64,000 nt of DNA from Actinospica robiniae DSM 44927. GTDB lineage: Bacteria; Actinomycetota; Actinomycetes; Streptomycetales; Catenulisporaceae. The notes beneath the pieces are model-generated. The model did not search any database, was not told where the DNA came from, and saw only the letters and a list, made by a program, of their open reading frames with translations. Numbering within the stretch: the first letter of the stretch is position 1; each line of letters opens with the position of its first letter. The stretch lies in assembly GCF_000504285.1 (NCBI RefSeq), contig NZ_KI632511.1:7546154-7610153 (forward strand), read 5' to 3'. A program made the translations under genes and the position numbers. Shown piece after piece: positions 41,267 to 57,076 of the stretch.

Positions 41267-42697
41267 TCAGGCAGCTGTGATCCGGAGCACCGGCAGCGGC
41301 ACCGCCGCCTGGTGCCCGGTGGCCCAGGACTCCGGCAGGCGCACGGTCAGCGCGTGCGGGCCCTGCTCGAACTCGAGTGGCCGCGGTTCGAACTCGCCGG
41401 TGTGGCCGAGCAGCTCGATCCGGCCGATCTTGCCGTGGTAGAGCGTCAGATCCGCTCCGAGCGAACGGATCTCGATCCGTCCGTCCTCCGGCGCGGCGAG
41501 GGAGAGCACGTACAGCAGCCCCTCCCGAGTGGTGAAACGCAGGTCGCGCGGGCCGTATCCGGCCTGGTCGCCCTCGGAGAAGCCGCCCTCGATGGACTTG
41601 GCCGGGCCTTCGCCGTAGACGGCCCATGGCCGGGTGCCGTACACGGCCTCGCCGTTGACCGCGAGCCAGGCCCCTACCTCGCGCAGGATCTGTGCCTCGT
41701 CCTCGGCGATCGTGCCGTCGGCCTTGGGTCCGACGTTCAGCAGCAGGCAGCCGTTCTTGGCGACCGTGTCCATGAGCGTGCCGACGAGCTCCCGCGGGGT
41801 CTTGTACTCCGGGTCCTCGACGTAGCACCAGGATTTACGCGAGACCGCCGTGCACGCCTGCCACGGACGTGGCCGCAGCGTAGCGCTCGCGCCGCGCTCG
41901 ATGTCCTCGACCGCCGTGCCGACCGGGAAAGCGCCGTCCTTGTACGTCAGGACGGGCTCGAGCCCGGCGTCGGCGAGCCGGTTGTAGTAGTGCGCGGCGA
42001 GCTTCGGCAGGTACGGCGTGTAGGCAGGCCGGTGGATCCACCAGTCGAAGTAGAGCAACTGCGGGTCGTAGGCGTCGATGAGCTCGATCGTGTGCGCAGC
42101 CCATTCGTCCAGGAACTGCTTGCTCGGTGCGAGGTGCTGCGGCTGCGCCGGGCCGTAGAGCGAGGCGTAACGCGGATCGCGCACGTCCGAATCGAAGGCC
42201 ATCCCGCCCTCGAGGAACCACCAGTGCTCGGCACGGTGGGTGGAGACTCCGAAGACCATCGCCCGGCGGCGTACCGCCTCGGCCAGCTCGCCGATCACGT
42301 CCCGCTTCGGGCCCATCACCGTGGCGTTCCACGGGTTGAGCTCGCTGCGGTACATGGCGAACCCGTCGTGGTGCTCGGCCACCGGGACCACGTACTGCGC
42401 GCCGGCTTCGCGGAAGAGCGCGGCCCAGGCGTCCGGGTCGAAGGACTCGCCGGTCAGCAGCGGGATGAAGTCCTTGTAGCCGAACTCGTTCTGCGGTCCC
42501 CAGGTGGCGCGGTGGTGCTCGAACTCCGGCTTGTCCGTGCGGTACATGTTCCGCGAGTACCACTCGTTGCTGTAGGCGGGCACGCTGTAGGGGCCCCAGT
42601 GCACGAAGATGCCGAACTTCGCGTCCCTGAACCAGTCCGGGACCCGGTAGGCGGCCAGGGATTCCCAGCTCGCCTCGTACCGGTCCGCCGAGGTCAC
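41267..42697 (-). CDS. GH29 alpha-L-fucosidase
   Basis: A 476-residue glycoside hydrolase family 29 enzyme. WFRDAKFGIFVHWGPYSVPAYSNEWYSRNMY is the family N-terminus and YVVPVAEHHDGFAMYRSELNPWNA the substrate site. The nucleophile is Asp 218 in LLYFDWWIH. NGCLLLNVGPKADGTI lies later, followed by a C-terminal beta domain. No signal peptide is present, so it acts in the cytosol. The GTG start overlaps the GH3 stop by four bases (GTGA), so both are made from one transcript. It would remove the terminal fucose from imported xyloglucan oligosaccharides. Confidence 0.92.
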   Translation of the reverse strand: MTSADRYEASWESLAAYRVPDWFRDAKFGIFVHWGPYSVPAYSNEWYSRNMYRTDKPEFEHHRATWGPQNEFGYKDFIPLLTGESFDPDAWAALFREAGAQYVVPVAEHHDGFAMYRSELNPWNATVMGPKRDVIGELAEAVRRRAMVFGVSTHRAEHWWFLEGGMAFDSDVRDPRYASLYGPAQPQHLAPSKQFLDEWAAHTIELIDAYDPQLLYFDWWIHRPAYTPYLPKLAAHYYNRLADAGLEPVLTYKDGAFPVGTAVEDIERGASATLRPRPWQACTAVSRKSWCYVEDPEYKTPRELVGTLMDTVAKNGCLLLNVGPKADGTIAEDEAQILREVGAWLAVNGEAVYGTRPWAVYGEGPAKSIEGGFSEGDQAGYGPRDLRFTTREGLLYVLSLAAPEDGRIEIRSLGADLTLYHGKIGRIELLGHTGEFEPRPLEFEQGPHALTVRLPESWATGHQAAVPLPVLRITAA

Positions 42698-45255
42698 GCC
42701 AGCTCCACGTGCACGCTCGCCGGCAGATCGGCGCTGGATCGGCCGACCTCGAACACGTACTCGCCTGCTGCGACGAAGGCGCGTCCCTCAGCCGCGGACC
42801 ACCGCTGCAGACCGGCGGAAGCCACTTCGAAGGCGACCTCGCGCCGCTCGCCCGGCTCCAGCGCGATCCGCGCGAAACCGACCAGGATCCGCAGCGCCTC
42901 GTCCTCGGCGTCGAAGCCCTCGCCGCCGATCCGGCGCACGTAGAGCTGGGCGATCTCGTGTCCGAATCGGGGGCCGGTGTTGGTTATGTCGAGATTAACG
43001 GTTACTGTGAACGCTCCCGGTCCTTCTGCCTGCACCTGCGCCGACGGATCGGAGTACTCGAACGTCGTGTAGGAAAGACCATGACCGAACGGATACAAGT
43101 GGTCACGCCGCGAGTACCGGTAGGTCCATCGGGATCCGATCACGTCGTAGTCGGTCGGGTCCGGAAGTTCGGCCGAAGCCGCGTACCAGGTCTGCGGCAG
43201 CCGACCCGAGGGGTTGCTCCGCCCGGTGAGCGCGCCGGCCACCGCGGTGCCGAGCTCCTGGCCGCCGTGCGAGGTCCACAGGACCGCCGGCAGGCTCCGG
43301 GCTGCGAAATCGATCGCATACGGGTAGCTGGAGACCAGCACGAGCACGGTCTCCGGGTTGGCCTGCTGCACCGCGCGCAGCAGCCGCTCCTGCCGGGCCG
43401 GCAGCTCGAGGCCGTCGCGGTCCACGGTCTCCCGGCCGTTGATGTGCGGGTCGTTGCCGAGCACCAGCACGACGCGGTCGGCCGAGGCCGCGAGCTCTGC
43501 GGCGGCCTGCTCGCCCGACTCCACGACGTCCAGCCGGAAGCGGGTGGCGGCGGCGAAATCCTCGACATCGGCCAGCAGCGCACCGGTCGACGGTTCGACG
43601 CGGACGTACTTACGGCGCTCCGGCGCGTTGGAGCGCAGCGTGAAAGTTTCACCGCCGGCAGCGTCCGCGGCGGTGTCCGGAGCGGCTTCGAACTCCCAGA
43701 GTTCCTTGACGATCCAGCCGTCCGGGGCGTCCGCGGCGGCCTCGACGCCCTCGTCGTTCTTGCCGGTGAGCGTCAGGTAGCGCCCGTTCTCGACGGACTG
43801 CAGCGTGTGCACCGGCAGCGGGCACTGCACGCTGGTGCCCCAGTCCTGGTGCCGGTACGGACCGAACTCGACGGGCTCGCCGGAGGCCTCGTCCACGACC
43901 CGCAGCACCACCAGGTCGGCGCCGTCAGTCGTGCCGATCTGCGTCCCGGCTTCGGCGTACGCGCTGGTCAGGGCGTCCGCGATGGACACCGAGTAGGGCA
44001 GCGTGCCGCTGTACCAGTCGGTCAGTACCCGCGTGCCCAGGTGGCCGATGACGGCGATGCGTTCGGGCGCGTCCTGGCCGGTCGGCAGGGGAAGCGCGGC
44101 GTCCTCGTTCTTGAGCAGCACCACGGACGCCTCAGCCGCCTCGCGGGCGAGCGCGCGGTGCTCCGCGCTGTCGATGACGTCGGCCTTGATGTCGGCGTAC
44201 GGGTCGGAGTCCTTGGCGAACTCCGCGGTCCGCGCGCGCAGGAGCAGCAGCCGGCGCACCGCGGCGTCCACGTCGGACTCGGTGATCAGGCCGCGTTCCA
44301 GCGCCGCGGTGAAGCGCTCGATCGTCGGAACGCTGTCCGTGGCGTTGTCGGTGTAGCTGTCCACGCCCGCCTTGAGCGCGGCGGCGTGCGAGACGGCGTG
44401 GTCGTCGAAGTACTTCTCCCGTTCGACCAGGTTCGACGGGGCCTGCGCGTCCGAGCACACCGCGAGATCCGGGTCCCAGGCGCGCAGCGCGTCATTGATC
44501 AGCGGGTGGACATGGTTGGGCACGCCGTTGGTCAGGTTGTAGCCGGGCATCACACCGGCGGCCACGCCCGCCTCGATCGGTCCGCGGAAGGCCGGGAGCT
44601 CGTATTCGTGCAGGACCCGGTCCGGCACCCGCACGTCGATCAGGTCGCGGTCCGTCTCGATGTTGTACGCGAGGAAGTGCTTGAGCACCGGCGTGGTGCG
44701 CCACACCGTGGGGTGCTCGCCCCGCAGTCCGCGGCAGAAAGCGGTGGCGATCTGCGCGGTCGCGTACGGGTCCTCGCTGTAACCCTCCTCGTTGCGGCCC
44801 CAGCGCGGGTCGCGCAGCGGGTTGACCACCGGCGCCCACACGTTGAGCGAGACCTGCGCCGGCTTCTCGAACTGGCCGCTGTCCTGGTACGCGTTCGCGG
44901 TGTCCTGGCTGAACGCGCGCACCTCGGTCGAGACCGCCTCGCCCACCCGCCGCACCAGCTCCCGGTCCCAGGTCGCGCCCAGGCCCACCGCCTGCGGGAA
45001 GACCGTCGCCTCGCCGATCCAGGCCACCCCGTGCAAGCCCTCGCACCCGGTCAGGAACTTCGCCAGGCCGAGCCGTTCGACGGCCGGCTGGTGCTGGTGC
45101 AGGAAGGCCACCTTCTCCTGGACGGTCAGTTCGGCCAGCAGCGACTCGGCCTGCTGTTCAGGGGTGGGGGTCACGAGGGCCACTCTCTCACTCGGGGGAT
45201 GCGAAGGCGACGGGACGGAAACGGGCATCTGATCGAAGCGCTTCGAAAGTTCCAT
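42694..45255 (-). CDS. GH3 beta-glucosidase with inserted beta-trefoil-like domain
   Basis: An 853-residue GH3 enzyme without signal peptide. Residues about 35-340 are the GH3 barrel (KHFLAYN near 192, nucleophile Asp 269 in VCSDAQAPS). The second GH3 domain begins near 370 (ASVVLLKNEDAALPL) and a fibronectin III-like domain closes the protein. Residues about 484-578 (TLQSVENGRYLTLTG ... TRFRLDVVE) look like a fascin or beta-trefoil insert and not the usual PA14. AAAGGGGGG before the ATG at 45255 supports the start. An operator palindrome lies within codons 4-8, so a shorter start at 45228 is possible. It would trim glucose from xyloglucan backbone fragments. Confidence 0.88.
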   Translation of the reverse strand: MELSKRFDQMPVSVPSPSHPPSERVALVTPTPEQQAESLLAELTVQEKVAFLHQHQPAVERLGLAKFLTGCEGLHGVAWIGEATVFPQAVGLGATWDRELVRRVGEAVSTEVRAFSQDTANAYQDSGQFEKPAQVSLNVWAPVVNPLRDPRWGRNEEGYSEDPYATAQIATAFCRGLRGEHPTVWRTTPVLKHFLAYNIETDRDLIDVRVPDRVLHEYELPAFRGPIEAGVAAGVMPGYNLTNGVPNHVHPLINDALRAWDPDLAVCSDAQAPSNLVEREKYFDDHAVSHAAALKAGVDSYTDNATDSVPTIERFTAALERGLITESDVDAAVRRLLLLRARTAEFAKDSDPYADIKADVIDSAEHRALAREAAEASVVLLKNEDAALPLPTGQDAPERIAVIGHLGTRVLTDWYSGTLPYSVSIADALTSAYAEAGTQIGTTDGADLVVLRVVDEASGEPVEFGPYRHQDWGTSVQCPLPVHTLQSVENGRYLTLTGKNDEGVEAAADAPDGWIVKELWEFEAAPDTAADAAGGETFTLRSNAPERRKYVRVEPSTGALLADVEDFAAATRFRLDVVESGEQAAAELAASADRVVLVLGNDPHINGRETVDRDGLELPARQERLLRAVQQANPETVLVLVSSYPYAIDFAARSLPAVLWTSHGGQELGTAVAGALTGRSNPSGRLPQTWYAASAELPDPTDYDVIGSRWTYRYSRRDHLYPFGHGLSYTTFEYSDPSAQVQAEGPGAFTVTVNLDITNTGPRFGHEIAQLYVRRIGGEGFDAEDEALRILVGFARIALEPGERREVAFEVASAGLQRWSAAEGRAFVAAGEYVFEVGRSSADLPASVHVELA
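45233..45246. promoter_or_regulatory. LacI-type operator 1 (GH3-GH29 side)
   Basis: The perfect palindrome TCGAAGCGCTTCGA overlaps the beginning of the GH3 gene. It is the same sequence as operator 3 and matches operators 2 and 4 in at least 12 of 14 positions. Confidence 0.8.
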
Positions 45256-45469
45256 CCCACCCCCCTTTCTGTCAATCCCCGGCCAGCTCAGGAACTCGGT
45301 CCGCCGGCCGTAAGCAAAAGAATCTTTGCAGTTCAGAGGCGATGTAGTGGTACAGCGGGGGAGGAGGTCGGCCCTGGTATCGACCACCGGGCATCGAGTG
45401 CCCTCGTCATCGAATCGTAACCGAACGCCCTTGCATGGGCCGTTTTACTGACCTAACCTCAAGCCAACA

Positions 45470-45483
45470 TTGAAGCGCTTCGA
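45470..45483. promoter_or_regulatory. LacI-type operator 2 (importer operon)
   Basis: TTGAAGCGCTTCGA, centred 237 bp from operator 1 and 51 bases before the binding-protein ATG. It contains the GAAGCGCTTC core. Confidence 0.8.
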
Positions 45484-45533: not shown

Positions 45534-47222
45534 ATGCCGAGCTCCATCGCATTCACCCGACGCGGGTTCGTGACCGCGTCCGCGGGTGTCGCCGGCGCGG
45601 TAGCCGGAGTGCCGTTGCTTTCCGCCTGTGGCAGCAGCGCAAGCAGTACCACCGGCGTGACGGCGAAGTCCGCCGTGAAGGCCGTCATTCCGACCTATAA
45701 GGCCTCCAGCGCGGTCACCGCCGACATCCCCTCGGTCGCGGGCGCCGTCGGCTCGGCCACCGACCCGGGCTTCCTGAACTTCCCGGCCAACCCGGTCAAG
45801 ACCGTGACCGGCACGATCGGCTCCGGCGGCACCTACAAGACGGTGACCCCGATCTGGGGCTCGGTCCCGCCGGCCGGCAACAGCTACTACAAGGCCGTGA
45901 ACGCGGCCCTGGGCGCCACGCTGAACGAGAACCCCTCGGACGGCAACAACTACGCCACGATGCTCTCCACCCTCTTCGCCTCCGGGAACATCCCGGACTG
46001 GCTGGACGTGCCGGGCTGGAACACCGCCGCGATCCAGAACTTCTCCGAGGGTGTCGAGAAGTACTTCAAGGACCTCACGCCCTACCTCGCGGGCGACAAG
46101 GCGCTGGACTACCCGAACCTCGCCGCGATCCCCTCCACCGGCTGGTCCGCGGGTGTGTGGAACGGCAAGCTGTACGGCATTCCGCTGTGGACCTCGGGCG
46201 CCTCGTTCGCGGGCATGATCTACTACCGCGCGGACATCTTCAAGACCGCCGGCATCGACGCCTCCACGATCACCAGCGCGGACGCGCTCAAGGCGCTCGG
46301 CGCCGAGCTGACCAACAAGTCCAAGGGCCAGTACGCCTTCGATGACCTGGGCATCTACCTCTTCCAGATGTTCAACATCCCGATCTCCTCGGGTGTGGGC
46401 TTCACGAAGGACTCCAGCGGCAACTTCATCTCCAAGTACGAGATGCCCGAGTACGTGGAGATGCTGGAGTTCGCCTCCTCGCTCGCCAAGGGCGGCTGGG
46501 TGCACCCCTCTGCCATCGCCGGAGACTCGCAGAACGCGAAGAACCGCTTCTGGGCCGGCAAGACCGTGATCACGGCCGACGGCAACGGCGCGTGGGTGGG
46601 CGCGGACGCGCAGAGCGGCCAGGCCGCCAACAAGGGCTACGAGCGGCAGGCCTTCAAGATCTTCTCCTTCGACGGCTCCACCCCGAAGATCGGCCTCGAG
46701 GCCGGCGCCGGCATGTTCTCGTACCTCAACAAGAACCTGTCCGACGCCCAGGTCAAGGAACTGCTGCGGATCGCCAACTTCCTCGCCGCCCCCTACGGCA
46801 GCCAGGAGTACCTGGTCGCGCGCTACGGCCAGTCGGGCACCGACTACACGATCACCGCCAACGGCCCGACGCTGACCAGCGAGGGCAACAAGGTCGTCAT
46901 CGACACCTTCGACCAGCTCGCGAACTGCCAGGCGGTCATCTACAACGCCGGCTTCAACCAGATCACCCAGGACTACGCGGCCTGGCAGGCGGACGCGGTC
47001 CAGCACGCGTACAAGCCGCTCTTCTTCGCGATGAACATCACCGAGCCGGCGTCGACCGCCAAGGCGACCACCGCGCTCGAGTCGGTCATCACCGACGTGC
47101 GCCTCGGCCGCAAGACGGTGACGGACTACCAGAACGCGCTCACCACTTGGAAGAACCAGGGCGGCAACACGCTGCGCGCCTTCTACGAGGGCGTTGCCAA
47201 GAAGTACGGCACCGGTAACTGA
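45534..47222 (+). CDS. Sugar ABC transporter substrate-binding lipoprotein
   Basis: A 562-residue family 1 extracellular solute-binding protein of the large LplA-like type. The N-terminus has a twin-arginine-type pattern (TRRGFVTASAGVAGAVAGVPL) followed by lipobox LLSAC, so it is probably exported folded and then lipid-anchored. Mature segments include LNENPSDGNNYATMLSTLFASGNIPDWLDVPGW and GKLYGIPLWTSGASFAGMIYYRADIFKTAGID, usual for oligosaccharide binders. GGAGAG 5 bases upstream fixes the start. As first gene of the xyloglucan operon it likely binds xyloglucan oligosaccharides, which is inference from its neighbours. Confidence 0.88.
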   Translation: MPSSIAFTRRGFVTASAGVAGAVAGVPLLSACGSSASSTTGVTAKSAVKAVIPTYKASSAVTADIPSVAGAVGSATDPGFLNFPANPVKTVTGTIGSGGTYKTVTPIWGSVPPAGNSYYKAVNAALGATLNENPSDGNNYATMLSTLFASGNIPDWLDVPGWNTAAIQNFSEGVEKYFKDLTPYLAGDKALDYPNLAAIPSTGWSAGVWNGKLYGIPLWTSGASFAGMIYYRADIFKTAGIDASTITSADALKALGAELTNKSKGQYAFDDLGIYLFQMFNIPISSGVGFTKDSSGNFISKYEMPEYVEMLEFASSLAKGGWVHPSAIAGDSQNAKNRFWAGKTVITADGNGAWVGADAQSGQAANKGYERQAFKIFSFDGSTPKIGLEAGAGMFSYLNKNLSDAQVKELLRIANFLAAPYGSQEYLVARYGQSGTDYTITANGPTLTSEGNKVVIDTFDQLANCQAVIYNAGFNQITQDYAAWQADAVQHAYKPLFFAMNITEPASTAKATTALESVITDVRLGRKTVTDYQNALTTWKNQGGNTLRAFYEGVAKKYGTGN

Positions 47223-47303: not shown

Positions 47304-47347
47304 GTGGCCGCGGCGTGAGCGATGAGCGTGAGATGGGAGTAGGGCCC

Positions 47348-48379
47348 GTGGCGGCGATCACGACCCAGGAGGCGGAGGCCTCCACGAAGCGGCGGCGCTT
47401 AGGCGTCGGCCGTGGCAAGGACAAGGGACCGCGACTGCGGAACATCACCTGGCGCACCCGGCTGCGGCGGGACAAGACCCTGCTGCTGATGTGCGTTCCG
47501 GCGCTGATCCTGATCGTGCTGTTCAACTACCTGCCGATGGCCGGGATCGTCATCGCGTTCGAGAACTACGACATCTACCAGGGGCTGATCCACAGCCAGT
47601 TCGTCGGGCTGCAGCAGTTCCAGCAGGTGTTGACCGACCCCGGCTTCTGGCAGGCCTTCGAGAACACCCTGGTCATCGCATTCGTCCAGCTGGTGCTCTA
47701 CTTCCCGATCCCGATCATGCTCGCGCTCCTGGTCAACACGATCCTGAGCCAGCGCATCCGGGCCTTCATCCAGGCCGTGGTCTTCCTGCCGCACTTCTTC
47801 ACCTACGTGCTGGTGATCACGTTCTTCCAGGAGTTCCTCGGCGGCGCGGGCGTGCTCAACGTGTTCCTGAATCGGCACGGGATCTCGTCCTGGAACATCA
47901 TGACGGACCCGGGCACATTCAAATACCTGGTCACCGCGCAAGCCGTGTGGAAAGAGGCGGGATGGGGACTGATCGTCTTCCTCGCCGCGCTCGCCGCCAT
48001 CGACCAGAACCTCTACGAGGCGGCAGCGGTGGACGGCGCGGGCCGATGGCGCCGGATGCGGCACATCACCCTGCCGAGTCTGCGCGGCATCGTGGTGCTG
48101 ATGCTGGTGCTGCGCCTCGGCAACGCGCTGAGCGTCGGCTTCGAGCAGATGCTGATTCAGCGACAGGCGGTCGGTGCGAGCGCCGCCGACGTGCTCGACA
48201 CCTACTCCTATATCTATTCCGGCCTAGGCGCCGGATTCGGCGGAACGACCTCGGTCGGCGGCAGTTACAGCTATGGCGCCGCGGTCGGATTATTCAAGGC
48301 CGTGCTGTCCCTGATCTTGATTCTGGGTGCGAACAAACTGGCGCACATGTTCGGTGAGGATGGGTTGTACCGCCGATGA
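47348..48379 (+). CDS. Sugar ABC transporter permease (LplB-like)
   Basis: A 343-residue permease with six membrane helices and a hydrophilic N-terminus of about 45 residues. YLPMAGIVIAFENYDIYQGL is the LplB/YteP-type first periplasmic loop and DQNLYEAAAVDGAGRWRRMRHITLPSLRGI the EAA motif that contacts the ATPase. This GTG has GGGAG 8 bases upstream; GTG 47315 and ATG 47333 in the same frame are alternatives. Its stop overlaps the next permease start. Confidence 0.88.
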   Translation: MAAITTQEAEASTKRRRLGVGRGKDKGPRLRNITWRTRLRRDKTLLLMCVPALILIVLFNYLPMAGIVIAFENYDIYQGLIHSQFVGLQQFQQVLTDPGFWQAFENTLVIAFVQLVLYFPIPIMLALLVNTILSQRIRAFIQAVVFLPHFFTYVLVITFFQEFLGGAGVLNVFLNRHGISSWNIMTDPGTFKYLVTAQAVWKEAGWGLIVFLAALAAIDQNLYEAAAVDGAGRWRRMRHITLPSLRGIVVLMLVLRLGNALSVGFEQMLIQRQAVGASAADVLDTYSYIYSGLGAGFGGTTSVGGSYSYGAAVGLFKAVLSLILILGANKLAHMFGEDGLYRR

Positions 48380-49341
48380 GCACTGTCACCGAATCCGGCG
48401 GACGTTTCCGCCCCGCCTCCGCCCGCGGGTTCCGCAAGCCGGCCAAGGGCCGCCCGGTCTGGGAGGAACAGCCGCACTGGTACGGCCAGTTCGGCAAGGG
48501 CACGGTCATCACCGCGGTCCTGCTGGTCATCCTCGTCCCGGTCTGGGGCGTGGTGCTCACCAGCTTCTCCACCAAGGGCGCGATCAACTCGGCCGGCAAC
48601 GGCCTGGTGCTCATCCCGCACGGCCTGAGCCTGCAGAACTACCAGCTGATCTTCAGCGGCGGCACGGTCAGCCGCTCGCTGTTCGTCACCGCGTTCATCA
48701 CCATCGTCGGCACGGCGCTCTCGATGTTCGTCAGTGTGCTGTGCGCGTACGGGCTCTCCCGGGCGCACTCGTTCGCCCAGCGGCCGGTGCTGATGACGCT
48801 GATCGTGACGATGTTCTTCAACGGCGGCATCATTCCGACCTTCCTGGTCGTGAGCGACCTGAAGCTCTTCGGCAGCCTCTGGGCGCTGATCCTGCCCTCC
48901 GCGGTGAACGTCTTCAACATCCTGGTCCTGCGGGCCTTCTTCACCAACACCGCGGCCGAGCTGATCGAGGCCGCGCGGCTGGACGGCGCCAGCGAGTGGC
49001 GGGTGCTGTGGTCGGTCGTGATGCCGACCTCGCGCGCCGTGATCGCAGTCGTCACCATGTTCTACGCGGTGGCCTACTGGGGCACCTTCTTCAACGCGAT
49101 CCTCTACGAATCGCAGAACGCCTCCAACAACCCGCTGGCCGTGGTCATCTTCGACTACACGCTCGAGGGCACCAGCATGCCCGGCATGGGCACCACCGGT
49201 GTCGGCGGACTCGCCCAGGCGTCCCAGACCGGCCTGTCGATGGCCACCGTCTCGCTTTCGCTCATTCCCATCGTCATCCTGACGCCGTTCGTGCAGAAGC
49301 ACTTCGCCAAGGGCATGCTCACCGGCGCCATCAAGGGTTGA
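48376..49341 (+). CDS. Sugar ABC transporter permease (YtcP-like)
   Basis: A 321-residue permease with six membrane helices. RPVLMTLIVTMFFNGGIIPTFLVVSDLKLFGSLWALILP and the EAA loop ELIEAARLDGASEWRVLWSVVMPTSRAVIAVVTMFYAV identify the YtcP/CUT1-type subunit. It starts in an ATGA overlap with the first permease. No ATPase gene follows. These CUT1 importers in actinobacteria commonly share an ATPase such as MsiK encoded elsewhere. Confidence 0.9.
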   Translation: MSTVTESGGRFRPASARGFRKPAKGRPVWEEQPHWYGQFGKGTVITAVLLVILVPVWGVVLTSFSTKGAINSAGNGLVLIPHGLSLQNYQLIFSGGTVSRSLFVTAFITIVGTALSMFVSVLCAYGLSRAHSFAQRPVLMTLIVTMFFNGGIIPTFLVVSDLKLFGSLWALILPSAVNVFNILVLRAFFTNTAAELIEAARLDGASEWRVLWSVVMPTSRAVIAVVTMFYAVAYWGTFFNAILYESQNASNNPLAVVIFDYTLEGTSMPGMGTTGVGGLAQASQTGLSMATVSLSLIPIVILTPFVQKHFAKGMLTGAIKG

Positions 49342-49357: not shown

Positions 49358-51643
49358 ATGCGCACCTCAAAGAAGAGGGCGATTCTTGCCTGCACCGCGG
49401 CCGGGCTCCTGGCCGCGCCGCTGATCGCCGCCCCGGCCGCCTCGGCCGCGAGCGGATCCGCGGGCAACGGCAGCGGTTATGTGTGGAACAACGTGAACAT
49501 CGGCGCCGGCGGCTTCATCACCGGCGTCGTCTACAACCAGACCCAGCCAGGCCTGGCCTACCTGCGCACTGACATCGGCGGCCTCTACCGCTGGAACGCC
49601 TCGGCGCGCACCTGGATCCCGCTGCTGGACTCCACGAGCTTCGCGAACTGGAACGAGCTCGGCGTCGAATCCGTGGCCACCAGCCCGATCCACCCCAACG
49701 TGGTGTGGGCCGCCGTCGGCTCGTACGCGGACAGCTGGAACAACGGCCAGCCCTCGGCCATCCTGCGCTCGAGCGACTACGGCCGCACCTGGACCTCGTT
49801 CAGCCTGCCGTTCGAGAACGGCGCGAACGACCAGGGCCGCGACTCCGGCGAGCGGCTGGTCGTGGACCCGAACGACGACAACGTGCTCTACTTCGCCACC
49901 CGCAACCAGGGCCTGTGGAAGTCCACCGACGGCGGCCGCACCTGGGCGCAGGACAAGGACTTCCCGGACCTGGGCTCCAACTCCACCTCCGGCCTGCAGT
50001 TCGTCACCTTCGACCAGACCGAGAAGCACCGCGGCACCCCGACCCGGCACATCGTGGCCGGCGACGGGGACACCTCGACGCTGTATGAGAGCACTGACGG
50101 CGGCAAGACCTGGACCACGGTGGCCGGCGGACCCGGCACCATCCCGATCAAGGCGCAGTTCGCCGGGAACGGCTCGCTGTACGTGGTCTACGACCAGTTC
50201 ACCGGCCCGTACTGGATGGGCACCGGCAAGCTCTACAAGTTCGCCGCGGGCACCTCCTCGCGCTCCGGCAACGGCGCGGTCGGCGCCGGCGCGGACGTCA
50301 CCCCGGAGTCGTCCTCCGCCTGGTGGGGCTACGACGGGCTGGCGCTCGACCCGAGCAACCCGAACACGGTCTACGTCGCCACCAACGACCGGTGGAGCCC
50401 GATCGACACGATCTACCGGTCCACCGACGGCGGCACCACCTGGACCGACGTCTCCGCTTCGACGTCGCTGGACATCGCCTCCGAGCCGTACCTGGCCTGG
50501 GGCGCGCAGCCGAAGTTCGGCTGGTGGATCGGCGCCGTCGCGGTCGACCCGTTCAACCCGAACCACGTCGTCTACGGCACCGGCGCCACGCTCTACGGCA
50601 CCACGAACATGGGCGCGCTGGACTCCGGCGGCACGGTGGACTTCTCCACCGCCGCGGCCAAGGGCATCGAGGAGACCTCGGTCAAGTCGCTGCTGGTGCC
50701 GAACGGACCGAGCGACTGCAAGCTGATCAGCGCCCTGGGCGACCTCGGCGGGTTCTGCCACACCTCGCTCACCCGGTCGCCGACCGACACCTTCGATGCG
50801 ACCTACAGCACCGGCTCCGGCATCGCGCAGGACGCCAAGGGCGATCTGATCGCGTTCGTCGGCGAGAACGGCTCGAGCCTGCCGGCCGGCCAGTACTCCA
50901 CCGACGGCGGCAAGACCTGGACCCAGTTCACCGCCCCGGGCTCGATGAGCTGGGGACAGGGCCAGGTGGCGGTCGCCGCGGACGGCTCGGGCATCGTGTG
51001 GAACCCGGCCGACGGCACCAGCCCGGTCTACTCCACCGACCGCGGCCAGACCTGGACGGCCGTGACCGGCCTGCCCACCGGCGTGGCCCCGGTGGCCGAC
51101 CCGGTGAACAAGAACACGTACTACGCCGTCGACTCGGGCACCGGCGTGCTCTACCGCTCCACCGACGGCGGCAAGACCTTCGCCTCGGCCGCCACCGGCC
51201 TGACCGCGGCGAGCAACGACCAGCTGCAGACGATCCCCGGCCACGCCGGCGAGCTCTACTTCGCCGCGCAGACCGGCGGTCTGATGCACTCGGCCGACGG
51301 CGGAAGCACCTGGACCCAGGTGGACGCCGCGCACGTCTCGGCGGCCGACGCGGTGGGCGAGGGCGCGGCCGCTCCGGGCTCGCACAACCGGACCCTGTAC
51401 ATGGTGGGCACCGTCGACTCGGTGACCGGGTTCTACATGTCCACGGATCTGGGCAGGCACTGGACGAAGATCAACAGCGACCAGCAGAACTTCGGCTGGA
51501 TCCCCGACATCGTCGGCGACCCGAACCACTACGGCCGGGTCTACGTCGGCACCAACGGCCGGGGCGTCGAGACGATCGACGTGTCCCGGCAGGGCGGGAA
51601 CCAGCAGGGCCAGGACCAGCAGGGCCAGGACCAGGATCAGTAG
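49358..51643 (+). CDS. GH74 endo-xyloglucanase, secreted
   Basis: A 761-residue glycoside hydrolase family 74 protein. The Sec signal (residues 1-31, ending PAASAAS) is followed by the tandem seven-bladed propeller domain with many STDGGxTW (sialidase-like) repeats. The catalytic acids are Asp 72 in YLRTDIGG and Asp 462 in SALGDLGGF. GH74 enzymes cut the beta-1,4-glucan backbone of xyloglucan. No carbohydrate-binding module follows; the protein ends in a Gln/Asp/Gly tail from an imperfect 15-base repeat. It starts 16 bases after the permease, so polymer cutting is tied to import. Confidence 0.93.
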   Translation: MRTSKKRAILACTAAGLLAAPLIAAPAASAASGSAGNGSGYVWNNVNIGAGGFITGVVYNQTQPGLAYLRTDIGGLYRWNASARTWIPLLDSTSFANWNELGVESVATSPIHPNVVWAAVGSYADSWNNGQPSAILRSSDYGRTWTSFSLPFENGANDQGRDSGERLVVDPNDDNVLYFATRNQGLWKSTDGGRTWAQDKDFPDLGSNSTSGLQFVTFDQTEKHRGTPTRHIVAGDGDTSTLYESTDGGKTWTTVAGGPGTIPIKAQFAGNGSLYVVYDQFTGPYWMGTGKLYKFAAGTSSRSGNGAVGAGADVTPESSSAWWGYDGLALDPSNPNTVYVATNDRWSPIDTIYRSTDGGTTWTDVSASTSLDIASEPYLAWGAQPKFGWWIGAVAVDPFNPNHVVYGTGATLYGTTNMGALDSGGTVDFSTAAAKGIEETSVKSLLVPNGPSDCKLISALGDLGGFCHTSLTRSPTDTFDATYSTGSGIAQDAKGDLIAFVGENGSSLPAGQYSTDGGKTWTQFTAPGSMSWGQGQVAVAADGSGIVWNPADGTSPVYSTDRGQTWTAVTGLPTGVAPVADPVNKNTYYAVDSGTGVLYRSTDGGKTFASAATGLTAASNDQLQTIPGHAGELYFAAQTGGLMHSADGGSTWTQVDAAHVSAADAVGEGAAAPGSHNRTLYMVGTVDSVTGFYMSTDLGRHWTKINSDQQNFGWIPDIVGDPNHYGRVYVGTNGRGVETIDVSRQGGNQQGQDQQGQDQDQ
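51605..51640 (+). repeat. 15-base tandem repeat encoding the GH74 C-terminal tail
   Basis: CAGGGCCAGGACCAG occurs twice in tandem and is followed by GATCAG, giving (QGQDQ)2DQ just before the stop codon. Confidence 0.7.
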
Positions 51644-51653: not shown

Positions 51654-53573
51654 ATGGCTTCTCTGCACGACGCCACGCGCGGCCGGCTTCTGTTCGGGGG
51701 CGACTACAACCCCGAGCAGTGGCCGCGCGAGGTCTGGGAGGACGACGTCAGGCTGATGCACGAGGCCGGGGTGAACCTGGCCACGGTCGGCGTCTTCTCC
51801 TGGGCCCTGCTCGAGCCCAGGCCGGGGGAGTACGACTTCGGCTGGCTCGACGAGGTCCTCGACCTCCTGCACTCCGGCGGGATCGGCGTCGCGCTGGCCA
51901 CTCCGACCGCGAGCGCTCCGCCGTGGCTGCACCACCGGTGGCCGGAGACCTCGCCGCAGGACCCGGATCGCAGCGTGCGTACTTACGGGTCGCGCAACGC
52001 TTACTGCCCGTCCTCGGCGGTCTACCGGCACCACGCGGACGCCGTCTGCGCGGCGCTGGCGGACCGGTACGCGCACCACCCGGCGCTGCGGATGTGGCAC
52101 ATCGGCAACGAGTTCGGGACGGTGTGCTACTGCGACGGCTGCGCGGAGACCTTCCGCGGCTGGCTCAAGCGGAAGTACACCGACCTCGACGGGCTCAACG
52201 AGGCCTGGGGCACCCGGTTCTGGTCGCAGCACTACAGCGAGTGGGCCGAGGTGATCCCGCCGCGCAAGGTCCAGTACGTCATCAATCCGGTGCAGGACCA
52301 GGACTATCAGCGCTTCGCCTCGGATCTGCTGCTCGAGGGCTTCAAGACGGAGCGCGACATCGTCTCGGCCCGCAACCCGGCGGTCCCGGTCACCACGAAC
52401 TTCATGGGGTTCTACAAGGGCACCGACTCCTGGCAGTGGGCGCCCGAGGAGGACTTCGCCTCGGTCGACTCGTATCCGGACCCGAACGACCCGCTCGGCG
52501 CGTGCGCGAGCGCGTTCGCCCAGGACCTGACCCGGTCGCTGGGCCGGTCGACCCGCGCCGGCGGCTGGATCATGATGGAGCAGTCGACCGGCGCCGTGGG
52601 CTGGCGGGAGGTGGCCACGCCCAAGCCGCCGGGCCTGTTCCGGCTGTGGTCGCTCCAGGCCCTCGCCCGCGGCGCGGACGGGCTGCTGCAGTTCCAGTGG
52701 CGCGCCTCGAAGCAGGGCGCGGAGCGCTCGCACAGCGCGATGGTGCCGCATGCGGGCCCTGATTCGCGCGTGTTCCGCGAGGTGTGCGAGCTGGGCAAGG
52801 ACCTCGCCGGCCTCGGCGACCTGATCGGCACCGAGGTCGCGGCGCAGGTCGCGATCGTGGTCGACTGGGACGCCTGGCGGGCGGTGGAGCTCGACCACCA
52901 GCCGCACAGCGGTTTCCGCTACGTGGACCGGATCTACGAGTACTACACCGCGCTGTGGCGCGCGAACATCACCTGCGATTTCGTGCATCCGCACGCGGAG
53001 CTGTCCGGGTACCGGCTGGTGCTCGCGCCGAATCTGTATCAGATCTCGGACGAGGCCGGCCGGAACCTGGAGCGGCACGTCGAAGCCGGCGGCACGCTCG
53101 TCGTCGGGCCGTTCAGCGGAGTGACGGACCCGGACGAGCGTGTCCGCCTCGGCGGCTATCCCGCGTCCCTGCGGGAGCTGCTCGGGATCCGGATCGAGGA
53201 GTACTGGCCGATCCCGGACGGGGTCGGCCTGCGGGTGGGCTCGGCCGAGCTGGGCGACTTCACGGCCGCCACCTGGGCCGAGTGGTTCGACCAGGCGGCC
53301 ACCACGGCCCGCGTGCTCGCGCGGATCGAGGACGGCCCGCTGGCCGGCCACCCGGCGGTCACGGTCAACGGCCACGGCGCCGGCTCGGCCTGGTACCTCG
53401 CCACCCTGCCGGAGGCCTCGGCCCTCGGCCGGGTGCTGCGCCGTGCCGCCGCCGACGCGGGCGTCGGGCCGGTGCTGGAGAACCTGCCGGAAGGCGTGGA
53501 GGCGGTCCGCAGGGGCGACCGCGTCTTCGTTCTCGACCATCGCACCCGCGAGGTCGAGATCCGCGCCGCCTGA
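51654..53573 (+). CDS. GH42 beta-galactosidase
   Basis: A 639-residue GH42 enzyme. FGGDYNPEQWPREVWEDDVRLMHEAGVNLATVGVFSWALLEPRPGEYDFGWLD is the family N-terminus. The acid/base is Glu 153 in HIGNEFG and the nucleophile Glu 309 in MMEQSTG. Cysteines around 117 and 157-162 (CYCDGC) may form the zinc site known in the family. The trimerisation and C-terminal beta domains are present. No signal peptide is seen. It follows GH74 by 10 bases and would release galactose from imported oligosaccharides. The terminator at 53578-53617 ends the operon. Confidence 0.93.
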   Translation: MASLHDATRGRLLFGGDYNPEQWPREVWEDDVRLMHEAGVNLATVGVFSWALLEPRPGEYDFGWLDEVLDLLHSGGIGVALATPTASAPPWLHHRWPETSPQDPDRSVRTYGSRNAYCPSSAVYRHHADAVCAALADRYAHHPALRMWHIGNEFGTVCYCDGCAETFRGWLKRKYTDLDGLNEAWGTRFWSQHYSEWAEVIPPRKVQYVINPVQDQDYQRFASDLLLEGFKTERDIVSARNPAVPVTTNFMGFYKGTDSWQWAPEEDFASVDSYPDPNDPLGACASAFAQDLTRSLGRSTRAGGWIMMEQSTGAVGWREVATPKPPGLFRLWSLQALARGADGLLQFQWRASKQGAERSHSAMVPHAGPDSRVFREVCELGKDLAGLGDLIGTEVAAQVAIVVDWDAWRAVELDHQPHSGFRYVDRIYEYYTALWRANITCDFVHPHAELSGYRLVLAPNLYQISDEAGRNLERHVEAGGTLVVGPFSGVTDPDERVRLGGYPASLRELLGIRIEEYWPIPDGVGLRVGSAELGDFTAATWAEWFDQAATTARVLARIEDGPLAGHPAVTVNGHGAGSAWYLATLPEASALGRVLRRAAADAGVGPVLENLPEGVEAVRRGDRVFVLDHRTREVEIRAA

Positions 53574-53577
53574 AGCC

Positions 53578-53617: not shown

Positions 53618-53706
53618 ATCCATCGCCGTATGCCGCGTGGCAGAGGTCCACTGGGGGTAGCCTCGGGGGAACTCAGACGCCGCGGCGGCGGTCGAGGACG
53701 AAACTA

Positions 53707-53720
53707 TCGAAGCGCTTCGA
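53707..53720. promoter_or_regulatory. LacI-type operator 3 (upstream of lacI promoter)
   Basis: The perfect palindrome TCGAAGCGCTTCGA lies 10 bases before the -35 of the lacI promoter. Confidence 0.8.
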
Positions 53721-53729
53721 CAGATCCCC

Positions 53730-53759
53730 TAGACAGTCTCCACGTGCGCGGTCTACCCT
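53730..53759 (+). promoter_or_regulatory. Promoter of the LacI-family gene
   Basis: TAGACA (53730-53735), an 18-bp spacer and TACCCT (53754-53759). It is bracketed by operators 3 and 4, so the regulator should control its own gene. Confidence 0.55.
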
Positions 53760-53807
53760 TCAGGGGCAAGGCTTGGCGGGCGGCCGGGAAACCGGCCGGA
53801 GACAATG

Positions 53808-53821
53808 TCGAAGCGCTTCAC
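53808..53821. promoter_or_regulatory. LacI-type operator 4 (lacI leader)
   Basis: TCGAAGCGCTTCAC, centred 101 bp from operator 3 and 67 bases before the lacI ATG. The core is identical; the last two bases differ. Confidence 0.75.
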
Positions 53822-53887
53822 CACCGCTTCCGGGCACAGCGCCCCCGCCGTGCCCGCCCCGCTCCGACCACCCGAAGAGGCTCCACT

Positions 53888-54904
53888 ATGGTGACCCTGG
53901 CCGAAGTCGCCCGCCAAGCGGGCGTCTCGCCCTCCACGGTGTCCTACGTCCTGTCGCGCAAGCGCTCGATCTCGGACGACACCCGCCGGAAGGTGGAGGC
54001 GGCGATCGAGGCGCTCGGATACCACCCGCACGCCGGGGCCCGCGCGCTGGCGTCGAACCGCTCCAACATCCTCGCCCTGATGATCCCGCTGCGCAGCGAC
54101 ATGTACGTGCCGGTGATCATGGAGATCGCCATGGCGGTGACCACCGAGGCGCGCGAGTTCGGGCAGGACGTGCTCCTGCTCACCAAGGACGAGGGCACCC
54201 AGGGGGTGCGCCGGATCGCCGGCAGCGGCCTGGCCGACGCGATGATCCTGATGGACATCGAGCTCGAGGACGACCGGATCCCGGTGCTGCGCGAGACCGA
54301 GACCCCGGCCGTGCTGATCGGGCTGCCCGCCGACTCGGCCGGGCTCGCCTGCGTCGACCTCGACTTCGAGGCCACCGGCGCCACCTGCGTCGAGCACCTC
54401 GCCGCGCTCGGCCACCGCGACATCGCCCTGATCGGCGAGGGCGAGGGGGTCTACCAGCGCAAGACCGGCTTCGCCGCCCGCACGCTGGCCGGCTTCCAGC
54501 GGGCCGCCGCCGAGCGCGGCGTGCGCACCGTGCACCGCTCCTGCGAGGGCACCTACGAGTCCACCGCGGGCGTGCTCTCCCGGATCATGGAGGAGCGCCC
54601 GCACACCACCGGGTTCGTGGTGCAGAACGAGGCGGCCATCGCCCCGCTGCTGAGCCTGCTGCGCCTGTCCGGCCGGGCCGTGCCCGAGGACACCAGCGTG
54701 GTGGCGATCTGCCCGGACCAGGTCGCGCTGCAGGCCTCGCCCCGGCTGACCAGCGTTTCCATCCCGGCCGAGGAGATGGGCCGGCGCGCCGTCCGGCTCG
54801 CCATGGCCCAGCTCGACTCGGCCGGCGGCCAGCAGGAACCGATCACCTTGATCCCCCCGGCGCTGACCGCGCGCGAATCGAGCGCCGCCGGTCCCGCGGC
54901 CTGA
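53888..54904 (+). CDS. LacI-family transcriptional repressor of the xyloglucan locus
   Basis: A 338-residue LacI-family regulator. The N-terminal helix-turn-helix is MVTLAEVARQAGVSPSTVSYVLSRKRSISDDTRRKVEAAIEALGYHPHAGARAL (residues 1-54), including the hinge helix. A type-I periplasmic-binding-like sensor domain follows (SNILALMIPLRSDMYVPVIMEIAM, HLAALGHRDIALIGEGEG). Its gene is bracketed by two GAAGCGCTTC palindromes, and the divergent enzyme and importer promoters carry two more. The fit is a local repressor released by an imported sugar; which sugar is unknown. GAAGAGG precedes the ATG. Confidence 0.9.
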   Translation: MVTLAEVARQAGVSPSTVSYVLSRKRSISDDTRRKVEAAIEALGYHPHAGARALASNRSNILALMIPLRSDMYVPVIMEIAMAVTTEAREFGQDVLLLTKDEGTQGVRRIAGSGLADAMILMDIELEDDRIPVLRETETPAVLIGLPADSAGLACVDLDFEATGATCVEHLAALGHRDIALIGEGEGVYQRKTGFAARTLAGFQRAAAERGVRTVHRSCEGTYESTAGVLSRIMEERPHTTGFVVQNEAAIAPLLSLLRLSGRAVPEDTSVVAICPDQVALQASPRLTSVSIPAEEMGRRAVRLAMAQLDSAGGQQEPITLIPPALTARESSAAGPAA

Positions 54905-55033
54905 GCCGCGGCCGGCCCGCGACCGGCGCTCAACCCCAGAACACTGATACGTACGGCAGCACGCCCCGCGCCCACCGGGCGCCGCCCCGCACGGCGGCGC
55001 GCACTGCCCCCGCCTACGAAAGGCCCATCCGCC

Positions 55034-57076
55034 ATGTCCGAGGAATCCCCGCTGGCCTCGCTCGCCCACGAGGTGGGCGAGTTCACGGCCCGACCCGGAG
55101 AGCCCGTCCTGGAGTGGACCGGCCGCCAGGAGACGCTGCGCATCGAACCGTGGGGCGCCGACTCGCTCCGGGTCCGGACCAAGGTCGGCGGGGCGATCCT
55201 GGACGACGTGCCCGGCGCCCTGCTCGAGAACCCGCCGGGGGAACCCGGCGCCGGGGCCTGGGTGGAGCTCGGCCCGCACGCGGCCACGATCGTCAACGGC
55301 GAGCTGACCGCCACCGTGACGCCCACCGGCCGGATCACCTTCACCCGCACTTCCGACGGCGCCGAGTTGCTGGCGGAGCAGGACGCGCACTTCTGGTGGC
55401 CCGGCCCGCGCCTGCGCACCGCGCACGGCAACGGCTACGCCCGGCTCGAACAGCGCTTCGCCGCCTACCCGGACGAGCGCCTCTACGGCCTCGGCCAGCA
55501 CCAGCACGGCCTGTTCGACCAGAAGGGCGCCGTGATCGACCTGGTCCAGCGCAACTCCGAGGTCACCATCCCGTTCCTGGTCTCCTCGCGCGGCTACGGC
55601 TTCCTGTGGAACATGCCCGCGATCGGCCGGGTGGAGCTCGCGCACAACGGCACCCGCTGGGTGGCCGACAGCGCCCGCCAGATCGACTACTGGGTCACCG
55701 CCGGCGAGCCGGCCGCGATCCAGCGCTCCTACGCCGCCGCCACCGGCCACACCCCGGTGCTGCCCGAGTGGGCCGCCGGGTTCTGGCAGTGCAAGCTGCG
55801 CTACCGCTCGCAGGAGGAGCTGCTCGAGGTGGCCCGCGAGTACCACCGCCGCGGCGTCCCGCTCGACGTCATCGTCGCGGACTTCTTCCACTGGACCCAC
55901 CTCGGCGAGTGGCGCTTCGACCCGGCCGAGTGGCCCGACCCGGCCGCCGCGGTCGAGGAGCTGGCGAGCTACGGCACGAAGCTGATGGTCTCGGTCTGGC
56001 CCTCCGTCAGCCCGCTCTCGGAGTACCACTTCGACATGGAGCGCCTCGGCCTGCTGATCGGCACCGAGTTCGGCCCCGTCGCCCACGCCGACTGGCCGGA
56101 CAAGGGCGTGGACCACACCGTCCAGGTCGCGTTCTACGACGCCACCAACCCGAAGGCGCGCGACTTCGTCTGGTCCAAGGTGCGCGAGAGCTACCTGGAC
56201 AAGGGCATCGAGATCTTCTGGGCCGACGCCTGCGAGCCCGAGCTCAAGCCCGGCTACCCGGCCAACCTGCGCTACCACGCGGGCACCGGGCTGGAGGTCG
56301 GCAACCTCTATCCGCGGGAGAACTCGCGGATGTTCTACGACGGCATGCGCTCGGCCGGCCGCGAGCACGTGGTCACGCTCAACCGTTCGGCCTGGGCCGG
56401 TTCGCAGCGCTACGGCGCGATCCTGTGGTCCGGCGACATCTACCCGGACTTCGCCACCTTCCGCAAGCAGATCGCGGCGGGCCTGAACACGGCGCTGAGC
56501 GGGATCCCGTGGTGGAACACCGACATCGGCGGCTTCCACGGCGGCGACCCGGACTCGCCGGAGTACCGCGAGACCATCGTGCGCTGGTTCCAGTTCGGCG
56601 CGTTCAGCCCGATCTTCCGGCTGCACGGCTTCCGCGAGCCGGCCATGGAGTTCTCGCCCCAGGTGACCGGCGGCCCGAACGAGATCTGGTCGTACGGCGA
56701 GGAGGCCTGCAAGATCATGTCCGACTACATCGCCCTGCGCGAGCGGCTCAAGCCGTACGTGCTCTCGGTGATGCAGGAGGCGCACGAGACCGGCCTGACC
56801 CCGATCCGCCCCTACCTGGTGGAGTTCCCGGAGGACCCGAAGTCCTGGACTGTGGACGACGCCTACCTGTTCGGCCGCGACCTGCTGGTGGCGCCGGTGC
56901 TCGAGGCCGGCGCCCGCGCCTGGGACGTCTACCTGCCCAAGGGCGCCTCCTGGCGGGACGCCTGGACCGGCGAGGAGTACACCGGCGGCCAGACCGTGAC
57001 GGTGCAGGCGCCGCTCGAGCGGATTCCGCTGTTCCTGCGCGACGGGGCGCAGCTTCCGATCCTTCCCGAGGCCTAG
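55034..57076 (+). CDS. GH31 alpha-xylosidase
   Basis: A 680-residue GH31 enzyme. An N-terminal beta-sandwich (residues 1-240) precedes the barrel. The nucleophile is Asp 398 in IFWADACEPE and the acid/base Asp 468 in LWSGDIYPDF. WWNTDIGGFHGGD and FSPIFRLHGFREP follow. The WADACEPE form and the xyloglucan setting point to alpha-xylosidase rather than alpha-glucosidase. No signal peptide is seen, so it works inside the cell on the non-reducing xylose of imported oligosaccharides. It lies 129 bases after lacI, with no operator of its own, so it may depend on the lacI promoter. GAAAGG precedes the ATG. Confidence 0.9.
   Translation: MSEESPLASLAHEVGEFTARPGEPVLEWTGRQETLRIEPWGADSLRVRTKVGGAILDDVPGALLENPPGEPGAGAWVELGPHAATIVNGELTATVTPTGRITFTRTSDGAELLAEQDAHFWWPGPRLRTAHGNGYARLEQRFAAYPDERLYGLGQHQHGLFDQKGAVIDLVQRNSEVTIPFLVSSRGYGFLWNMPAIGRVELAHNGTRWVADSARQIDYWVTAGEPAAIQRSYAAATGHTPVLPEWAAGFWQCKLRYRSQEELLEVAREYHRRGVPLDVIVADFFHWTHLGEWRFDPAEWPDPAAAVEELASYGTKLMVSVWPSVSPLSEYHFDMERLGLLIGTEFGPVAHADWPDKGVDHTVQVAFYDATNPKARDFVWSKVRESYLDKGIEIFWADACEPELKPGYPANLRYHAGTGLEVGNLYPRENSRMFYDGMRSAGREHVVTLNRSAWAGSQRYGAILWSGDIYPDFATFRKQIAAGLNTALSGIPWWNTDIGGFHGGDPDSPEYRETIVRWFQFGAFSPIFRLHGFREPAMEFSPQVTGGPNEIWSYGEEACKIMSDYIALRERLKPYVLSVMQEAHETGLTPIRPYLVEFPEDPKSWTVDDAYLFGRDLLVAPVLEAGARAWDVYLPKGASWRDAWTGEEYTGGQTVTVQAPLERIPLFLRDGAQLPILPEA

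Follow-up and report, generated by a model that had tools for sequence, protein, structure and literature searches.

The window analyzed here, a 64,000-nucleotide stretch of Actinospica robiniae DSM 44927 that is part of a single-contig genome of 9.92 Mb, contains at positions 41267 to 57076 (window numbering unless stated) nine genes that, judging from their sequences, are highly likely to form an actinobacterial xyloglucan utilization locus, with an import and debranching pathway as proposed below and LacI control as predicted. Gene families, gene order, conservation, a set of palindromes and the fixed position of these palindromes at promoters were observed directly, and the locus is very probably switched by the LacI-type repressor encoded within it. 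The original prediction, made from the letters of this stretch, had proposed a complete xyloglucan locus in one regulon. Xyloglucan as the substrate is well supported by the enzyme families, their nearest solved relatives and the conserved locus, while the single regulon, still a prediction, no longer rests on adjacency alone but draws on operators, the geometry of promoters and a comparison of genomes. The features are as follows (GH, glycoside hydrolase family; SBP, solute-binding protein).

41267..42697, minus strand: GH29 (alpha-L-fucosidase or alpha-L-galactosidase); Pfam PF01120, 1.9e-100; best PDB matches 7snk and 7ljj.
42694..45174, minus strand: GH3 exo-beta-glycosidase, predicted xyloglucan-oligosaccharide beta-glucosidase, 826 aa; Pfam on the longer frame, start from homologues.
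45233..45246: putative operator TCGAAGCGCTTCGA of the GH3-GH29 promoter; core 31 bp past the start of TTGACA (45275-45270, minus strand).
45470..45483: putative operator TTGAAGCGCTTCGA, directly 3′ of the predicted SBP promoter (TTGCAT 45431-45436, TAACCT 45454-45459).
45534..47222, plus strand: lipoprotein-like CUT1 SBP, 562 aa, AlgQ2/NgtS/FusA-like fold in a structure model.
47315..48379, plus strand: CUT1 permease A (PermA); PF00528 (BPD_transp_1), 1.1e-14.
48376..49341, plus strand: CUT1 permease B (PermB); PF00528 (BPD_transp_1), 2.6e-8.
49358..51643, plus strand: predicted secreted GH74 xyloglucanase; PDB 4lgn 1.4e-156, 2cn2 8e-148; Asp72/Asp462.
51654..53573, plus strand: predicted GH42 beta-galactosidase; PF02449 3.9e-139, PF08532 1.5e-56; PDB 9ta3 2.9e-172.
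53707..53720: putative operator TCGAAGCGCTTCGA upstream of LacI; a pair stands upstream of LacI orthologues in most loci.
53808..53821: putative operator TCGAAGCGCTTCAC, second of the LacI-upstream pair.
53888..54904, plus strand: LacI-family repressor, predicted xyloglucan-oligosaccharide sensor; PF00356 2.4e-18, PF13377 6e-31.
55034..57076, plus strand: predicted GH31 alpha-xylosidase; PDB 5zn6 (MeXyl31) 4.7e-198; Asp398, Asp468.

The GH3 and GH29 genes overlap by 4 bases on the minus strand, and on the plus strand SBP-PermA-PermB-GH74-GH42 succeed one another with short gaps and are followed by LacI and GH31. Every enzyme family that had been named was found in its place, with Pfam and PDB matches far above chance; further matches in the Pfam scan were the GH3 C domain (2.5e-47), GH31 (9.8e-80) and sortilin/BNR propeller repeats in GH74. 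The LacI gene at 53888-54904 and the four operator-like palindromes (45233, 45470, 53707, 53808) are additions to the earlier description. The GH3 start was re-set to the GTG at 45174 from homologues, one of which has an in-frame upstream stop codon. We rejected a start at the first ATG (45255), which would place the operator inside the gene and where an orthologue has a stop codon.

The chemistry, repressor binding and signal that we infer would run as follows. The secreted GH74, together with GH12 enzymes and a second GH74 (GH74-CBM2) encoded elsewhere, would cut xyloglucan to short oligosaccharides, which the large SBP and the two CUT1 permeases would import, powered by a shared MalK/MsiK-type ATPase encoded elsewhere. 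Successive steps in the cytosol would remove L-fucose (or L-galactose) through GH29, galactose through GH42, xylose through GH31 and the backbone glucose so exposed through GH3. The repressor would bind TCGAAGCGCTTCGA palindromes that, in the GH3-GH29 and SBP-PermA-PermB-GH74-GH42 units, overlap the −10 region or stand directly after it, with operators also upstream of the lacI-GH31 unit, and would be released by an imported oligosaccharide or its breakdown product.

Among solved proteins GH31 was closest to the alpha-xylosidase MeXyl31 (5zn6; 663 bits), well ahead of alpha-glucosidases; a GH31 protein without a named activity (365 bits) and three alpha-xylosidases (353-313 bits) came next, and alpha-glucosidases only after these. 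It is thus nearer to named alpha-xylosidases than to alpha-glucosidases and has the catalytic Asp pair. For GH74, 17 solved sequences matched at 0.001, 12 of which are named for xyloglucan; the best E value was 1.4e-156, and the match to solved xyloglucanases is full-length with both catalytic Asp residues present. The PDB matches of GH42 are beta-galactosidases. The catalytic residues originally listed were found for GH74 (Asp72, Asp462), GH29 (Asp218), GH31 (Asp398, Asp468) and GH42 (Glu153, Glu309), whereas the numbering of "Asp269" in GH3 is true only for the upstream start, the residue being Asp242 when counted from GTG 45174. Asp72 of GH74 aligns with a position occupied by Asp in 2cn2 and by Ala in 2cn3, and Asp218 of GH29 with an Asp replaced by Asn in 7lnp; the GH31 and GH42 pairs and the GH3 Asp are residues that we take to be catalytic. 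Inspection by eye agreed with a secreted GH74 and cytosolic debranching enzymes, as had been proposed: the GH74 N terminus is signal-peptide-like, and an export-type start is absent from GH29, GH42, GH31 and GH3. The SBP, also read by eye, begins with a twin-arginine-like start and a lipobox-like LLSAC.

The SBP had no match in the Pfam scan and its sequence matches were weak. A model built from 19 sequences (mean predicted local distance difference test score [pLDDT], 77.5) gave as best fold matches AlgQ2 (Z 20.1), NgtS (20.0), AlgQ1 (19.9), Blon_2347 (19.5) and FusA (19.1), and also a chondroitin SBP; Z ranged from 20.1 to 18.8 and the root mean square deviation from 3.7 to 5.1 over about 420-445 residues, so that the ranks lie within 1-1.3 Z of one another. 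The modeled protein thus has the large size and the AlgQ1/AlgQ2/FusA-like fold of cluster G SBPs, with NgtS and Blon_2347 tied with them. The fold matches given in PMC12710961 for the xyloglucan SBP Athe_2052 are AlgQ2, AlgQ1, FusA and the glycosaminoglycan SBP 5gx8. The model therefore resembles the Athe_2052-type fold class, a shared fold that in itself shows no ligand. The Pfam scan of the locus genes revealed no ATPase, and the MalK-type OB domain had four matches elsewhere in the genome, in keeping with an ATPase shared between importers, as is known for MsiK and MsmK (PMC4890002, PMC12710961). SBP and two permeases beside an alpha-xylosidase, a beta-galactosidase and a GH3, all lacking signals by eye, make up the gene set of a Gram-positive ABC (ATP-binding cassette)-type xyloglucan locus.

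With GH31 as the query, a scan of the genomes of GTDB species yielded 488 related stretches. In the best 80, many of them cut by contig ends, we counted LacI in 74, GH42 in 58, GH12 in 56, PermA in 52, PermB in 50, GH95 in 49, GH74 in 42 (split 38 and 4 according to which of two GH74 queries matched best), SBP in 27, GH3 in 18, and GH29 and GH43 in 2 each. The window GH31 shares 94% identity with its counterpart in Actinospica durhamensis and, next, 85% with the one in A. acidithermotolerans. The same gene set, which the original prediction had suggested seeking in other actinobacterial genomes, is indeed present there, Streptomyces included, usually with GH95 in place of GH29; the usual Streptomyces order is LacI-GH31-GH12-GH95-GH42-GH74-PermB-PermA-SBP-(operators)-GH3. 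The GH95 and GH12 neighbors point to a fucosylated beta-1,4-glucan as the likely target. Catenulisporaceae have GH29 in the place of GH95, as in three Actinospica genomes (the window; L199, 81%; L205, 75%), where the set of G019 lies on two contigs; in Catenulispora GH29 adjoins GH43. Two further arrangements were seen. A sulfotransferase-like gene with no obvious role lies inside the Streptomyces locus, in the interval from LacI/GH31 to GH12 (L109 12140-13327, by Pfam; L254 11378-12574). In Catenulispora (L212 13476-17018; L217) another GH31 and an acetyl-xylan-esterase gene (assigned by Pfam for L212 and by eye for L217) diverge from a single pair of operators, as might be expected for the use of acetylated xyloglucan.

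Control by LacI is suggested first by the palindromes themselves. The repressor has a helix-turn-helix and a sugar-binding domain, and two pairs of GAAGCGCTTC cores, four copies in total, occur in the window; with the corrected GH3 start all of them are intergenic, upstream of lacI and on the predicted target promoters. The core is present in 74 of the 80 loci; among 179 copies with full flanks, TCGAAGCGCTTCGA (99) and TCGAAGCGCTTCAC (63) were the commonest 14-mers, and paired operators were most often 89-91 bp apart. In the A. robiniae genome the exact 14-mer occurs at 14 sites, compared with 0 for the reversed control. By contrast, GAAGCGCTTC alone is common (33 sites versus 21 for the reversed control), with some copies intragenic (L033, L035, L036), and the 14-mer with two mismatches gave 98 sites versus 80. 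Only the exact 14-base form is specific, and a chance origin of the operators is rejected. Within the window, a 12-base pattern with two mismatches was found 13 times against a mean of 8.8, which is not significant (7 of 100 shuffles had as many), whereas a 14-base pattern with three mismatches was found 12 times against 4.9 (0 of 100 shuffles). Of the one-mismatch sites with a changed core (2195567, 3019759, 3266961 and 3808775), two are intragenic, and their flanking genes gave no blastp match to the regulon reference proteins, no Pfam scan having been made.

The operator also has a fixed position on the GH3 and SBP promoters. Of 28 distinct GH3 promoters, 27 have a TTGAC that begins 30-31 bp ahead of the operator core, compared with 0 of 1400 random control positions. 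Of 27 distinct SBP promoters, 26 have a TAA[CT]CT box just ahead of the operator (control, 1 of 1350). The exceptions are the GH3 promoter of L254 and the SBP promoter of L158. These tallies count L090 once, its DNA being the same as that of L205, and skip loci with no operator in range, namely L094 in the GH3 set and six loci in the SBP set, of which five are cut by the locus end. Such a fixed geometry would make the operator cover or directly follow the −10/+1 region, a place for a repressor. TTGAC at 31 bp also precedes the inner sites before GH12 (9.875 Mb) and before an ABC exporter (8.725 Mb) in the A. robiniae genome; it is absent there before the second GH74, two CBM2-GH12 genes and GH48, and the TTGAC rule was not seen at lacI promoters.

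Operators also track the repressor gene across genomes. In an order-wide search of 293 genomes (E<=1e-100), GH31 was found in 96, some with only a more distant GH31 of 52-57% identity (G003, G174 and G208 among them), and LacI in 168. We counted operators as strand hits of TCGAAGCGCTTCRM, palindromes scoring on both strands; the genomes are related and no P-value is claimed. At least 3 hits were found in 159 of the 168 LacI-positive genomes and in 5 of the 125 LacI-negative ones. GH31 was the weaker predictor, with at least 3 hits in 93 of 96 GH31-positive and also in 71 of 197 GH31-negative genomes, and two GH31-positive genomes without LacI (G174 and G208) had zero hits.

Several observations weigh against this interpretation. 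Nine LacI-positive genomes have fewer than 3 strand hits and five LacI-negative ones at least 3; the related locus L094, which comes from a genome not belonging to the order, lacks both LacI and the operator. With strict TTG[CA] as the −35 box, both boxes were seen in only 13 of 28 SBP promoters (28 including the L090/L205 duplicate). No GH31 match at E<=1e-100 was found in 74 of the 168 LacI-positive genomes. We read the loci of six operator-rich genomes picked for lacking GH31, all LacI-positive: in G016, G057 and G055 LacI has no GH31 next to it although the other locus genes are retained (GH74 in G057 alone), the loci of G166 and G052 are rearranged so that GH43 adjoins LacI, and G052 and G059 have a different GH31 with operators within about 1 kb elsewhere in the genome. 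The window-type GH31 is therefore not essential to the predicted regulon. Finally, beta-xylosidases and beta-glucosidases score alike in the PDB search with GH3, the specificity of which is not fixed by sequence alone.

To describe the predicted regulon beyond the locus, we read the surroundings of all exact sites in six genomes (G000, the A. robiniae genome itself; G019; G015; G007; G003; G005), in which a hand tally gave 58 sites in 48 promoter regions; gene calls outside the window relied on basic codon scoring, trained with 12 genes of the window, so that start codons are rough. The neighbor is a glycan gene in 37 of the 48 regions: the locus itself, the second GH74, GH12, GH43, CUT1 importers and another GH31, with two regions beside an acetyl-xylan-esterase-like gene. 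Two of the 37 are less direct, G003 4018090 being tentative (GH43 start about 700 bp off) and G019 C466:116, at a contig edge, being assigned by lacI-promoter synteny. The operator precedes the second GH74 in three Actinospica genomes, G007 and G003; in the A. robiniae genome this GH74-CBM2 and the GH12 enzymes are encoded away from the locus, and CBM2-GH48 and one CBM2-GH12 have one-mismatch sites with the core intact. A second GH31, 57% identical to that of the window, lies at G000:C1:82522-85782 (L189). It adjoins a LacI (38%) whose helix reads GVSRSTVSYVLS, and at 84687 this region holds TCGAATCGATTCGA, which is a related palindrome.

Other genes flank the remaining 11 regions: five in the A. 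robiniae genome (three in a nonribosomal peptide synthetase (NRPS)-like cluster, one at a methyltransferase, one at an ABC exporter pair), four in G019 (an exporter, a transketolase, a methyltransferase and one contig-edge site), one in G015 (an exporter) and one in G007 (a transporter of the major facilitator superfamily, MFS). The NRPS-like cluster (genome 1.9638-1.9760 Mb) encodes an AurF-like oxygenase, AMP-binding enzymes, a condensation-plus-carrier protein and, further on, by eye, a BTAD activator and an NRPS-sized gene; it carries three exact TCGAAGCGCTTCGA in three intergenic regions (G000:C1:1963806-1975517; L022 3809-15520; also L187) and a fourth, variant site. The methyltransferase gene, whose operators form a pair 111 bp apart (G000:C1:5677085-5677209; L023 9088-9208), is duplicated in the A. 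robiniae genome. In G019 a pair with the same spacing lies between an FtsX-type gene and a methyltransferase (L200 6536-6657), and the NRPS-like cluster is not present in the stretch around it; the cluster may have entered a pre-existing operator region. The exporter gene pair has the operator upstream in all three Actinospica genomes (G000:C1:8724937-8725038, L024; L193; L201). CebR controls thaxtomin genes with cello-oligosaccharides as the trigger (PMC4890002), and by analogy we tentatively suggest, as a possibility short of our expectation, that a xyloglucan-responsive LacI also controls the NRPS-like cluster, the methyltransferase and the exporter pair; a sugar of the plant wall would then set off the production of a natural product. 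The G019 transketolase (L196 5056-6977), with its operator upstream, would fit the use of xylose freed from xyloglucan.

The sites might, however, belong mainly to a second repressor, or to both, the xyloglucan locus and a GH43/CUT1 cluster then forming a shared regulon with two sensors, for instance for galactosylated versus arabinosylated or xylosylated side chains. The paralogue LacI2 (genome 3408664-3409656) is 61% identical to the window LacI and has a similar recognition helix (GVSASTVSYVIS in LacI, GVSPSTVSYVLS in LacI2); it adjoins the GH43/CUT1 cluster, which carries the exact operator, and in G005 GH43-GH29 diverges from LacI-GH31 at operators. Given this similarity and the same operator, the sites are not assignable to one repressor, which also counts against a single LacI. 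On the other hand, many operator-bearing Streptomyces have only one LacI match at E<=1e-100, and LacI-GH31 retains its own operator pair in most loci. We consider the two-sensor arrangement a real possibility, if not the one we favor, and retain the LacI of the locus as its predicted switch.

A further question concerns GH29, which could be an alpha-L-galactosidase or serve another glycan, in which case fucosylated xyloglucan would not be the main substrate. The nearest solved chains, the near-identical 7snk and 7ljj (4.5e-125), are named alpha-L-fucosidase and exo-alpha-L-galactosidase, respectively; other fucosidases come after this pair, and 4ni3 is at 8.6e-78. However, according to PMC11189522 the cluster that holds the exo-alpha-L-galactosidase BpGH29 also holds fucosidases active on xyloglucan, and the Actinospica GH29 may fall within this cluster. 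Moreover, GH29 shares a unit and an operator with GH3, in the role that GH95 would fill in Streptomyces. We regard this alternative as unlikely.

Still less probable is a wider beta-glucan or cellulose regulon, whose repressor would answer to cello-oligosaccharides and for which xyloglucan would be just one target. Beta-glucans can serve as substrates for GH12 and GH74 enzymes. Operators occur at GH12 and GH48 genes, GH48 having its one-mismatch site about 0.5 kb before the called start, and since GH48 is a cellulase family the inducing signal might be a cello-oligosaccharide, contrary to what we propose; xyloglucan breakdown in Ruminiclostridium cellulolyticum also gives cellobiose (PMC4780118). 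A cellulose system, however, does not need the conserved core of GH31, GH42 and GH95 or GH29, and actinobacterial cellulose systems are described in PMC3377646 with other operators. A fortuitous grouping of genes, in which GH31 would be of the starch type and there would be no xyloglucan pathway, is the case against itself that the original prediction had named. We found no point in its support and hold it to be barely credible, GH31 matching MeXyl31 (663 bits) far better than any listed alpha-glucosidase and the locus being conserved across many species.

Variants in the genes for the xyloglucanase Xgh74A and an alpha-xylosidase are among those linked in PMC9203511 to tomato loci shaping the rhizosphere, which gives xyloglucan use a possible ecological relevance. 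The open-licence literature searched named no regulator of xyloglucan use in streptomycetes. For culturable soil bacteria, the present analysis supplies the gene of a candidate repressor, the exact sequence of its predicted operator, the geometry of the promoters and a list of putative targets and, if true, a clue connecting a sugar of the plant wall with a biosynthetic cluster.

The xyloglucan utilization locus (XyGUL) of Bacteroides ovatus reportedly combines a backbone cutter with an alpha-xylosidase, a beta-galactosidase and a beta-glucosidase, as in Actinospica, and is said to use SusCD uptake and periplasmic debranching. Unlike such Bacteroidetes loci, the nine locus genes gave no SusC or SusD match in the Pfam scan, in which the SBP had no match at all. 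The original prediction had considered intracellular debranching without SusCD a distinct design; it is in fact an already published Gram-positive one. The R. cellulolyticum locus Ccel_2451-2458, with tested Gal42A, Xyl31A, Glu3A and SBP, combines cytosolic enzymes with an ABC importer, and its authors report comparable clusters in more distant Gram-positive bacteria, some marked with alpha-fucosidase genes in their Figure 12; the terms "Streptomyces" and "Actinobacteria" are absent from the main text (PMC4780118). The two loci share the ABC importer, signal-less GH42, GH31 and GH3, and GH74 among the outer enzymes; the high-affinity SBP and the sequential cytoplasmic debranching of R. cellulolyticum have in Actinospica a counterpart predicted from genes. 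In R. cellulolyticum, as described there, a two-component system takes the place of LacI, the outer enzymes are cellulosomal and the gene cluster has no GH74 or GH29. The Actinospica locus therefore differs from that kind in its predicted LacI control and in grouping GH74 with the importer genes and GH29 with GH3. Anaerocellum bescii (Athe_2052-2054, with the GH31 Athe_2057) also has a CUT1 importer without its own ATPase and a neighboring GH31, and its SBP (551 aa, compared with 562 aa) likewise has an AlgQ1/AlgQ2/FusA-like fold (PMC12710961).

As for regulation, TCGAAGCGCTTCGA differs from the CelR site, and we rejected the idea that it is an already published operator, because the still other motifs that PMC3377646 gives for Catenulispora acidiphila and Actinospica robiniae differ from it; in a literature text search for GAAGCGCTTC with LacI and Streptomyces, the string was absent from the matches listed. 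The CebR/CelR cello-oligosaccharide regulons nevertheless share with the predicted regulon a LacI-family repressor, a palindromic operator, a CUT1 importer, a distant ATPase and scattered targets (PMC3377646, PMC4890002), and CebR also binds within a natural product cluster, that of thaxtomin, in parallel to the sites in the Actinospica NRPS-like cluster (PMC4890002).

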